Of a DNA stretch of 64,000 bases, positions 39,515 to 44,640 are shown in pieces. Position 1 is the stretch's first letter, and every line of letters begins with the position of its first letter. The translations under genes and the position numbers were made by a program. This DNA is from Eurosta solidaginis (lineage: Eukaryota; Arthropoda; Insecta; Diptera; Tephritidae): assembly GCF_040869045.1 (NCBI RefSeq), contig NC_090322.1, positions 244,117,148 to 244,181,147 on the forward strand. The letters are read 5' to 3'. The notes under the pieces were generated by a model. It was given only the letters and a program-made list of their open reading frames with translations. It did not search any database and was not told the origin of the DNA.

Positions 39515-40175
39515 GCTTAATTTTTTATGTGGGAGAAAATCTGAAACACCCTTCGTTAAAAAAATTTCCAAAAATCAATACGATTTCGAGAGACCTTTAA
39601 CCTGTACTTTGTTAGACTAAAATTGATTAGGCTATAAAATTGCAAATTAAAAAAATCTAAAAACCAGAGATTGGATTTTCGGTTAACTATATTAAGCAAA
39701 TCGGGTTATCACGGATAACAACCGATATCCAAAAGCAATAAGGGGCTTTCTCTGTGAGCTATGTTTATATTTGAATTTTTTCGAATTTACTCAGGGATTA
39801 ATTTTTATTTTCAAATGTTTTCTCACTACCACTGAAATAGCTTAGTGTGATTTATTAGAATAGTTTCGAGACATTTTTGTGGTAACGTTGGGATCATTCC
39901 GGGACTGTTATGGGATCACATCGGCGTTGTTTTAGGCACTGTTCTGAGATTACTTTGGCAATATGTGATAATACATTTTAGGACTATAGGCACAATTATT
40001 TCGGGATCATTTTGGTACTATTGGGGAATCATTTAGCGGATCGGAAAAGTTCATTTATGAATACGAAAAATTGTCGGGCTGTTATTATTATCGGTATAAT
40101 ATTGGTTACTTATCGACGAATCATTCGTTTGTTATCGATAAAGTGGTTTATTATCGGAGCATTATCGATGTATTA
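39515..40175. repeat. Composite unknown repeat, left part (GGGATCATT and TTATCG arrays)
   Basis: The order is: a segment beginning TTTTTTATGTGGGAGAAAATCTGAAACACCCTTCG-like (39515-39560), ACTAAAATTGATTAGGCTATAAAATTGC (39615-39645), a degenerate GGGATCATTTTGG minisatellite (about 39885-40035), then a TTATCGATT array (about 40085-40175). Related pieces occur at 43584-44640, 46150-46470, 50340-51045, 51667-51830 and 60890-61765, so this is a repeat family of unknown type. Confidence 0.55.
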
Positions 40176-40706
40176 CACTGGACCACGAATTTTAACTTTT
40201 TTTCTTTACCAGAAACGCCGTTATGAAATTCATATGTAAAATCACCCCCTGATTTCGAAAATTGAGTTCATTTTTGATTCTATGGTACCGTTTTTGAGAT
40301 ATTTGCAATTTACCGTTATTCGAAAAAACCAAAAAGATGGCTCCCATTAATTACGTATATCTCACGAACGGGTCAAGCAATTGCAAATAAGTTCACAGAA
40401 TCGGAAAGACGATACAATTTTCTATAAATGCATCATACATTGTTTTTTGCTCAACCATATAGTTTTCGAGATATTAGCTCATTTCAGATTTTTGTTTTTT
40501 TTTATGAAAAAATATGAAAAAAAAAATACTTTTTGCGAGGGCAGCATTCCAAAACCACAACTTTTTTTCCAAATATTTTTTATTTACGTAAAGCTCTGTT
40601 TAATTATAAAAAAGATAAGCTATCATCGCAGAAAATCGATGCAAAACTACGTAAGTTATAAGCGATCAAATAAAAATACCCAGGTTGCGCAATTTCAACG
40701 TATACC
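40176..40706. repeat. Left terminal inverted repeat
   Basis: Matches 43077-43583 in inverted orientation along its whole length with scattered substitutions and small indels. The first 60 bases are the most diverged, with an extra CTTTTTTTCT run near 40197. The apparent open frame 40381-40812 lies in this non-coding repeat. Confidence 0.88.
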
Positions 40707-40836
40707 TCAAAACGTATGTAGAAGAGTGAAATATCTAGCTATGCTCTGTTTCTATTTAGTTAAAAGTTCAATGTATGAACGAAATTACCCATATTTTAAA
40801 ATTTTTTTTTAAATTTATTTATGTTTATACTATATT

Positions 40837-42576
40837 CTAACAATCTTTATTTGATTTTGCTATGTAGTCGAAATAATTATGTGTTCTACTTTGACGCTTA
40901 TTCAGTTTCGGATCGGTTTCTCTTATGAGAAACCAGCAGTAATCACCCATCATTGCGACGTCCCAGAATCCTTGATATCGATTCTCAATTAATTTCATTT
41001 GCTGATTAAACCTTTCGCCATGTTCGTCACTTTCGAAGATTTGCCGGAAAAAAGCTCAAATGTGAGTGCAGAAAGTGAATTTTTAACGACATATTTACGC
41101 CTGGAAAGAAAATATTAGTTAGGTAAACAAGTTATAGAATTTTTGGAAATTAATTTTAATAAGCCTTTAATATTTACCCATTTTCGCATAATTATTGATT
41201 AAGTCGTTCACTATCTGCTCGTAGTTAGGGCTTTTGTTTCTACCGAGAAAAGAAGCAACGACGTTTTCAAAGGATTCCCACGCTGCTGCCTCAACTGATG
41301 ACAGTAGTCCTTTGAATTGATTATTGTTGATCAACTTTTTTATTTGTGGTCCGACAAAAATACCTTCCTTTATCTTGGCTTGAGAAATATCTGGAAAAAT
41401 TGTTTTCAAATAGTCGAATGCTTCGCCTTCTTTGTCCAAAGTCTTAACAAAGTTTTTAATGAGACCGAGCTTGATGTGTAAGGGTGGAAGTATGATTTTC
41501 TCTTTCTTGACAAGAGGGGTGTATTTGATGTTATCCACACCAACGGTAAACTCGACTCTTTCCGGCCAATCCTTTCTGACGTAGTGGTCCTTACGAGCTC
41601 GGCTACCCCACTTGCAAAGGAAGCAGCAGTGCTTGGTGTAGCCACTTTGTAGACCGCATAGCATTGCAACGACTTTGAGATAAGAACATATTTTCCAATC
41701 AGGCTCTTCATATTTGATAAATTTGAGTAGTTTTTGCATTTCCTCGTAGGTTTCCTTTGTATTTACTGCATGTGCTAGCGGGATAGAAGGCTTTTTGTTA
41801 CCAATATGCAATAATACAACCTTTAAACTCAGTTTATTGCTGTCTATGAACAATCGCCACTCTTTTGAATCATATGTTTGACCAAACTCTTTGAATAAAC
41901 CAGGAATGTCGTTGCAGTAGCATATACTGTCTTTCTTGGTATAGTGTTTGGAAAATGGTTCGTGACGAGTTCTACAATATATCACCTTAACATCGGATGA
42001 TACAAATTTAAATTGTTATATACGAGAAGTGTGGATCTCGGCCTTTTCCTTGGATAGTTCCAAATCTCTTATCCAATCATTAAGTTGTGCTTGTGATAGA
42101 ACGTTTCTCTCCTTTCCCATACGAAATTCAGTACAACTTGATTCCCCGCACTCAGATGTTACTGTTGACAATGGAACTGGATCCGCAACTGCCGTTGAAT
42201 GTAGTACTGGTAATGTCACTGTAGGTACGCTGGCATAGGTTACTCTTCTTGATCTTCCAACGCCAAGTACTTTTGTTTGACAAATATAACACTCTATTGA
42301 ATGGCAAGTAGGTTCTCTCCATATCATTGGTGTATCAAATTTTATTTGTTGTCCGGATTACGGCTGAATCAATTCTACTCGACACGATGTACACAAAGTG
42401 TTCGGTGTCCATGGTTTTTCAGCATTTTTAGGCTCAATGCCAAAATATTTGGAGTATAAAGTTTTGATATGATCTGAGAACACTCGTCGTCGCCTTATGA
42501 TAGTATATTGGCCACACATGAAACAGAACATATCTGGATCGTTATTACACTCAAATTCTCGCGTCCTTTTACTCAT
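40837..42576 (-). pseudogene. Putative transposase of an uncharacterised family, broken
   Basis: The minus-strand frame starts at 42576 (MSKRTREFECNN) and runs in one frame to 41178, with in-frame stops at 42358-42360 and 42016-42018. It is spliced over a 77-bp intron (41101-41177, donor GTAAAT, acceptor TTTCTTTCCAG) and ends at 40837 after a frameshift near 41030-41050, about 550 codons in all. Features: an N-terminal CFMCGQY...CTSCR zinc-binding-like module, a CYIC pair, RLFIDSNKLSLKVVLLH, WKICSYLKVVAMLCGLQSGY, CCFLCKWGSRARKDHY, LPPLHIKLGLIKNFVK, GIFVGPQIKKL and, after the intron, SDEHGERFNQQMKLIE plus FWDVAMMGDYCW. I recall many near-identical predicted 'uncharacterised' proteins in cnidarians, molluscs and arthropods. 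Acidic residues followed by a Cys pair suggest an RNase H-fold transposase, but this is inference. In family members I recall, Tyr at 41680-41682 is Asp. Confidence 0.85.
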
Positions 42577-43076
42577 TTTATTTTTTTTACTAAATCACGG
42601 TTTTGAAATTTGACTTATGAACTGAACTATCTCCGGCGAGCCTTGCAGATGTTATGAAGTTTCAAGACGCATTAACTCATATTTATACTCGGAACAAGAA
42701 TAAAATTTAAAAAATCAAATCTTACCTAGACAGAAAGGTTCCTTTTTATACGAAGCCGGGAAAAGAAAATACTACCTGCTTTAGATGTAGGCTTTAAAAA
42801 TTTTCTGTGTCTTATAATTTTGAAAATCTACCTGCATACTTACCCATAAGTGACGGAAATACATGTTTATAACTACATGCCTACAGCAGCTTTCGAACCC
42901 AACCACTCTTCCTTTCGATGCAACCACTCTACCTACTATAAAACAATTCGAGTATTAAAAGTACTATTTGATTTATTTAAAGAAAAAGTATTATCATTGT
43001 TATGGTGTTATTCGTTTATCCGGATAATATCCCATTTGCACTTTATACCTACCTTAAATATATGTATGTATACATA

Positions 43077-43583
43077 CATTGAAGTTGCGCAACCTGGGTA
43101 TTTTTATTTGATCGCTTATAACTTACGTAGTTTTGCATCGATTTTCTTCGATGATAGCTTATCTTTTTTCTAATTAAACATAGCTTTACGTAAATAAAAA
43201 ATATTTGGAAAAAAGTTTTGGTTTTGGAATGCTGCCCTCGCAAAAAGTAATTTTTTTCATATTTTTTCATAAAAAAAAAAACAAAAATCTGAAATGATGA
43301 GCTAATATCTCGAAAACTATATGGTTGAGCAAAAAACAATGTATGATGCATTTATAGCAAATTTTATCGTCTGTAAACTTATTTGTAATTGCTTGACCCG
43401 TTCGTGAGATATACGTAATTAAAGGGAGCCATATTTTTGGTTTTTTCGAATAACGGTAAATTGCAAATATCTCAAAAACGGTACCATAGAATCAAAAATG
43501 AACTCGATTTTCGAAATCAGGGGGTGGTTTTACATACGAATTTCATAACGGCGTCTCTGGTAAATTTTGGCCGTCGACCAGTG
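43077..43583. repeat. Right terminal inverted repeat
   Basis: The inverted partner of 40176-40706, ending GGCCGTCGACCAGTG. The stretch between it and the gene start (42577-43076) is AT-rich and probably holds the gene's promoter. I see no certain TATA box. Confidence 0.88.
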
Positions 43584-44640
43584 TTATCGGTTTATTATTG
43601 ATTTGTTATAAAAATGTTATTGATGTGTTATCGACAAAATATCCATTTGTTATCGAAAAGTTAGCGATTAGTTATCAGAAAAATATGGATCTGTGATCGA
43701 AAAAGTATCGATATACGATAGAAAAATATCGATTTGCTCTCGAAAAAATACTGATTTGTTGTCAAAAATATCGACTTCTTATTGCGATTTTTTATTATAA
43801 AAATATTGATCTGTGATCGAAAAAATATCGATTTAGGATGGAAAAATATCGATTTGCTACCGTAAAGCTATCGAAAAAAGATTGATTTTTTATCAGAAAA
43901 TATCGATTTGTTATTAAAAAAATTGATTTGTTATCGCAAAAATATCGACTTTTTATCGAATAATATTGATTTGTAAACGAAAAAATTTGAATGATAACTA
44001 TATTTTAGTTTTCATAGCTTCAGTTACAAATTTTATAATTTTTTTTTTTTATATTATCGAAAAAAAAATTTTAATTCTATTGACAAAATTTGATCAAAAT
44101 AGCCACTGCTATTTTCGTGTTCGCTGATGTATGTAATTGTACCACCGATGGTTCAGTTCATTCATCAAACTTCGTGCATGTCAGTTGGGGACTCGAATCG
44201 GGTATCACAGGTTTTATGCTTTTTAAATAAAGTATTTTTTTTTTGTTGTGAGAAATATTGAGTAGGGGATTTTAAAATTTCATCTACGATTTCTTAAACC
44301 AGTGAACTTTAATTTTGTAATTTAATACTATGTTCTCTAGAAGTACTAAAAATTCGTGAGGACCTATTTAAATCTTAAATTGACTGATCTTGATAGTATC
44401 AAAATTAAAGTTCATTTCGTTACGAAAGTCAAATATTTTATTTATTTATATTTTTTTATACGAAAAGTTATAGATTTTTTGTAAAAGTTTTAAATTTTTT
44501 CGAAAAGTTATCTTGTTATCAAGAAGTTATCGGTTTATTATTAAAAAGTTATCTATTTGCTATCAGAGAGTTATTCATTTTTTATCGGCGTTTTATCGAT
44601 TTGTTGTCGAAGAGTCATCGGTTGCCATTTGAAATCCCGA
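43584..44640. repeat. Degenerate TTATCGATTTG minisatellite
   Basis: About 20-bp degenerate units TTATCGAAAAATATCGATTTG are repeated from 43584 to about 43990 and again from about 44510 to 44620. A segment (43990-44100: AGCTTCAGTTACAAATTTTAT ... GACAAAATTTGATCAAAAT) lies between them and is also found near 61000. The array continues the phase of 40085-40175 on the other side of the transposon. Confidence 0.75.

Follow-up and report, generated by a model that had tools for sequence, protein, structure and literature searches.

Chapaev3 transposons such as Merrow, Garfield and Conan have CAC/GTG ends, TWA target-site duplications (TSDs; W is A or T) that always lie between A and T, and a transposase with C(2)C, LH and H(4)H motifs, and Garfield of the silkworm encodes 556 residues in two exons (PMC4079192; this and the other papers are cited from the parts of their text that were available). 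Chapaev3 elements have been recorded in the fly Calliphora vicina (PMC3630058). EnSpm, Mirage, Transib and Chapaev, the last including Chapaev3 as a sublineage, form one clade in which C(2)C and H(3-4)H motifs are shared (PMC12730594), and Chapaev3 has been grouped with Transib and RAG1 and described as carrying an N-terminal Chapa zinc domain (PMC4411706). A 12/23-type end asymmetry is reported for recombination signal sequences (RSSs) and some Transib elements, and a 27/31 asymmetry for ProtoRAG (PMC8355894, PMC8289069). Here we analyse a complete transposon of 3408 bp at 40176..43583 (minus strand) of a 64,000-nucleotide stretch of Eurosta solidaginis DNA, hereafter the window, located on C4 in an assembly of 1.9 Gb. 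The two ends of this element differ by a one-turn offset, and this asymmetry (8-10 bp, mostly 10) is retained over four diverged families of the same genome. Whereas the Chapaev3-type hallmarks of the element were known before, its non-equivalent ends are new here.

Structure of the element and its two ends

The initial annotation had placed a transposon at this position with CACTGG and CCAGTG ends (40176-40181 and 43578-43583), inverted repeats and a spliced minus-strand gene with one intron and several breaks. All of these features are confirmed; what had been missed is that this kind of element carries the published Chapaev3 hallmarks and that its two ends are asymmetric. The inverted repeats are ~530 bp long, with bodies at 40205..40724 on the left and 43053..43564 on the right that show 85-96% complementarity in the aligned segments I1-I5, and they are imperfect up to the tip because the outermost ~30 bp differ between the two ends. 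The long tip (type A, 40176..40204) comprises CACTGGACCACG and a spacer, measuring 29 bp up to the common body TTTACCAG; the short tip (type B, 43565..43583) reads CACTGGTCGACGGCCAAAA inward and reaches the same body after 19 bp. In the window copy, the long A tip is on the 3' side of the gene. Identical 3-mers flank the element, namely TTA at 40173..40175, preceded by A, and TTA at 43584..43586, followed by T. The long (~500 bp) inverted repeats and the long/short tips set this element apart from Chapaev3 as published: the available part of PMC4079192 makes no mention of asymmetry, and a literature search, with subscription papers and Repbase Reports outside its coverage, found no report of end asymmetry in Chapaev elements.

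End pairing within the window's family

A genome protein search yielded 5543 first-look candidates, and the 138 that were scored were all 92-100% identical. We examined 41 copies, comprising the window copy, 20 with long open frames and 20 from lower in the search list, and located both ends in 35 of them. The body TTTACCAG starts 29 bp from the A tip in 26 of these 35 copies and 19 bp from the B tip in 30, an offset of 10 bp; the core was unrecognizable at five A and three B tips, and the remaining six tips place it at 28, 32, 20 or 18 bp. All 35 copies combine one A with one B tip, and A+A or B+B copies were not found (0/35).

The 70 ends of these copies were aligned, and sites were counted if letter frequencies differed by more than 0.4. 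Sites 7-39, 67 and 88 follow the type of tip, sites from 518 inward follow the side of the gene, and none between follows either; the interior has the window-like orientation in 17 copies and the inverted one in 18. The site pattern implies that the repeat bodies are homogenized and that the interior occurs in either orientation, and it suggests that the left and right inverted repeats often exchange sequence, homogenizing their bodies from ~90 to 518 bp.

Exact tips number 549 (B) and 578 (A) genome-wide, with reversed controls giving 0. Pairing of neighbours within 10.5 kb was analysed for the places listed on C1, which hold 100 of the 549 B tips and 88 of the 578 A tips after 12 of 100 listed A places beyond the last listed B place had been dropped. 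In this part of C1, facing neighbours are A+B in 59 of 59 cases (31 BA, 28 AB), with no A+A and no B+B. In three of the 59 pairs the tips lie 7.4-9.9 kb from each other, perhaps with nested insertions between them, 70 of the 188 listed tips have no facing exact partner, and the six non-facing neighbour pairs comprise three divergent B-A, two same-strand B-B and one same-strand A-A.

Such strict pairing could be inherited from an asymmetric founder, without any role of the ends in pairing. The copies of one family share one ancestor element, and a crossover that inverts the interior by itself preserves one A and one B tip. The repeat bodies are homogenized, yet like-ended arrangements are missing from all 35 copies and from all 59 facing pairs. 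A founder effect can explain the A+B arrangement inside one family; it accounts less easily for an offset conserved between families that have otherwise drifted apart in spacers and repeats.

End asymmetry in further families

Three more families with the same kind of transposase were found in this genome by a search with the homologue P0063 and by inspection of fetched loci. Long and short ends measure 27 and 17 bp in three of three copies of the first family (L049, L059, L060), 25 and 15 bp in three of three copies of the second (L054, L057, L058), and 29 and 20 bp in the single copy L051 of the third. The relatives of L051 (L050, L052 and L056, 88-94% DNA identity) lack an intact long end, and the offset of about 8 bp in L052 is our own reading across A/T runs. 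Two further loci, L053 and L055, represent a subfamily of the window's family (94% and about 90% identity) with ends of 29/19 and 27/19 bp. Comparison of 278-299 residues puts transposase identity among the four families at 41-52%; blastn detects no similarity among the repeat samples compared (E <= 0.01), while the tips look alike. Eight of nine further-locus copies carry the same TAA on both sides, within A..T, and the ninth (L059) has TAA/TAC; the long end lies on the 5' side of the gene in all nine, opposite to the window copy.

Offsets of 10, 10, 10 and 9 bp in four families whose transposases and repeats have diverged to this extent speak against mere inheritance from a founder. On the other hand, the offset does vary (8 in L055, 9 in L051, about 8 in L052), Transib families mostly have symmetric terminal inverted repeats (PMC8289069), 12/23 pairs are not preferred by RAG1 when RAG2 is absent (PMC8355894), and no RAG2-like gene was recognized in the element. 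The two published points also count against assuming a functional rule. Taken with both sides, a founder effect is a serious contender that stops a little short of being probable.

We tentatively propose, as a possibility to which we give somewhat less than even weight, a long/short rule for the RAG1-fold, Chapaev3-type group: a ~12-bp signal starting with CAC, similar at both ends, would be followed by a spacer of n bp on one side and about n+10 bp, a helical turn more, on the other before the repeat body, and the mixed pair alone would be mobilized. The transposase would then touch the terminal signal and a second site past the spacer, and would pair one long-spacer with one short-spacer end. 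With its difference of one turn, the asymmetry is similar to the 12/23 layout of RAG signals, and we infer that it is functionally required; the offset here is 8-10 bp, not the 11 or 4 bp of the Transib/RAG1/ProtoRAG systems, and no RAG2-like partner is recognized in the element. If true, the long/short rule would parallel the V(D)J 12/23 rule outside the RAG/Transib branch, as an analogue or as a distant homologue. The families provide natural replicates for asking whether one-turn end asymmetry is wider among RAG1-fold transposases, a question that bears on the origin of the 12/23 rule.

Target sites and mobility

An identical 3-bp flanking duplication is present in 28 of the 35 two-ended copies (TTA 14, TAA 11, TTT 1, AAA 1, TAT 1), compared with a chance equality of 0.023 for two random 3-mers of the window. 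The duplication is TWA in 25 of 28 cases and lies in an A..T context in 24. In a comparison of 28 joined flanks with the sequences collected, eight matched across the joint. Those of the window copy, L016, L028, L031 and L032 were dropped as low-identity or self matches. The other three are uninterrupted relatives containing the target once each: L021 (94%, 294 bp), L024 (89%, 166 bp) and L026 (94% and 92%). The target boundary in L024 is ambiguous because its target is a TTATTA run, and the uninterrupted match of L026 is to adjacent tandem units at the same locus. The element is mobile: the traces of its mobility and its target are both seen. Its enzyme would cut at the CAC..GTG ends, insert into ATWAT and duplicate TWA.

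A multi-copy host gene family with incidental or borrowed inverted repeats could be considered, given that homologues are annotated as uncharacterized proteins. It is contradicted by the multitude of copies scattered over different sites, by the tips and TSDs that bound most of the examined ones, and by the uninterrupted sites; we reject it and attach next to no probability to it. The initial annotation had suggested testing homologues for flanking terminal inverted repeats and 3-bp duplications; gene-bearing copies in the present genome regularly have both.

At G000:C1:285195887-285229831, four facing A+B pairs follow each other in ~10-kb steps, three of them with 2419-2421 bp between the tips; it looks as if a shortened copy had been duplicated in tandem along with its surroundings.

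Transposase gene

The gene is read on the minus strand from two exons. Exon 1 (41178..42576) encodes an N-terminal region of Cys pairs (transposase residues 18-21, 62-65 and 91-99), the first catalytic Asp (41844-41842), the site of the second (41682-41680), the C(2)C motif (41625-41614) and the LH motif (His at 41481-41479). A 77-bp GT-AG intron (41101..41177) separates it from exon 2 (40837..41100), which encodes the H(4)H motif (41077-41075 and 41062-41060) and, within DEHGE, two candidates for the catalytic Glu (41025-41023 or 41016-41014). The exon joint reads M-G-V-N-M-S-L-K and matches the homologue P0017, an Onthophagus protein. A two-exon gene of this kind would yield a transposase of ~550 residues with an RNase H catalytic domain (Asp, Asp, Glu), into which a putative zinc site formed by C(2)C with H(4)H is inserted.

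The window copy is unable to yield an active enzyme: exon 1 has two in-frame stops (42358-42360 and 42016-42018), the frame of exon 2 is broken near 41035, a break found in none of 36 sibling copies compared, and the second catalytic Asp is lost, with Tyr at 41680-41682. Among 34 copies with all splice landmarks, nine have a frame that stays open over 540 residues or more, mostly 550. Openness of the frame is no guarantee of activity, as L026, with Asn in place of the second Asp, illustrates. A Pfam search of the N-terminal piece at 42358-42573 gave a zf-AD match below the cut-off (E 0.00054); this match and the Cys pairs are what the N-terminal region offers for comparison with the Chapa zinc domain of Chapaev3.

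Protein family and predicted fold

The family was described initially as wide and multi-copy, and protein searches with two queries bear this out with 1111 and 2614 proteins at E <= 0.001. Among the matches listed, Rhagoletis zephyria supplies the closest protein with a name (95% identity, 83% query coverage), and named members from insects, crustaceans, a tunicate, fish and a frog are labelled uncharacterized, hypothetical or unnamed. Homologues conserve the Asp, Asp and Glu, the C(2)C motif (113/120), LH (112/120) and H(4)H (47 of the 53 that have the C-terminal part). A fold search assigns the predicted model to the RNase H transposase fold of RAG1/Transib type, an RNase H fold being what the initial annotation had suggested checking for; the structural alignments listed show 9-13% residue identity. 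The predicted fold and the conserved D, D and E support the proposed role as a transposase, so that a family called uncharacterized gains a likely function and a predicted fold. The protein's motif strings were found in no paper by the literature search. One partial protein on a 716-base contig labelled Klebsiella pneumoniae (P0117) is 58% identical to the present animal transposase and is probably contamination.

Classification of the element

We conclude with considerable confidence that the window element is a Chapaev3-type member of the CMC clade, the degenerate form of an autonomous cut-and-paste transposon with a RAG1/Transib-type transposase, the clade name being given by features. With Merrow, Garfield and Conan it shares the CAC/GTG ends, TWA within A..T and a C(2)C-LH-H(4)H transposase of ~550 residues with Asp, Asp and Glu; with Merrow and Garfield it shares two exons, and with Chapaev3 in general the wide animal range. 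These hallmarks being those published for Chapaev3, the kind of element is already known. CACTA/EnSpm elements have CACT(A/G) ends, a 2-3 bp duplication and an EnSpm transposase. Our element resembles them in its CACT ends, 3-bp TSD and CMC clade, but Pfam gives no EnSpm match, and its TWA target and LH/H(4)H set are nearer Chapaev3. The transposase core fold of the predicted model is of the type found in Transib and RAG. Transib duplications are 5 bp long. ProtoRAG also has a 5-bp, GC-biased duplication (PMC8289069), in contrast to the 3-bp TWA here.

Several observations weigh against this assignment. One end is absent in 6 of the 41 copies, an identical duplication is absent in 7 of the 35 two-ended ones, and 3 of the 28 duplications are not TWA and 4 do not lie within A..T, where the Chapaev3 paper says always (PMC4079192). 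The modelled protein is a bee homologue (P0014) without its first ~75 residues, the Glu is one of two candidates, and the His-Glu spacing is 14 or 17 as compared with 20 in RAG1; among the nine open-frame copies, L026 at least has lost the second Asp. Pfam gave no match above its curated cut-off, a PDB sequence search nothing credible and a BFVD fold search nothing at E <= 0.001, and among homologue DNA loci none of 79 pattern stretches in viral_contigs and none of 14 in genome_contigs was confirmed. The association with terminal inverted repeats was examined in one genome, and the clade name rests on features.

The comparison by features and the Pfam result would also suit a separate CMC-clade lineage beside Chapaev3, of which the clade has several diverged ones (PMC12730594). 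We regard this as unlikely, since TWA, the A..T context, CAC/GTG ends, C(2)C-LH-H(4)H and the two-exon gene all fit Chapaev3 and the gene length is alike (550 residues versus 556 for Garfield). PIF/Harbinger elements combine an IS5-type transposase with a Myb/SANT protein and prefer TWA as their target. Canonical Harbinger TSDs are 3 bp long (PMC12730594), as here, but the element has a single recognized gene with C(2)C and H(4)H between the second Asp and the Glu, a predicted RAG1-type fold and the CAC..GTG ends that are a Chapaev hallmark; on fold and motifs we reject PIF/Harbinger as highly improbable.

The right flank of the Chapaev3-type element (43584-44000), read by eye, is a loose array of short units resembling TTATCGATTTG, so that the element seems to be inserted in a degenerate short repeat.
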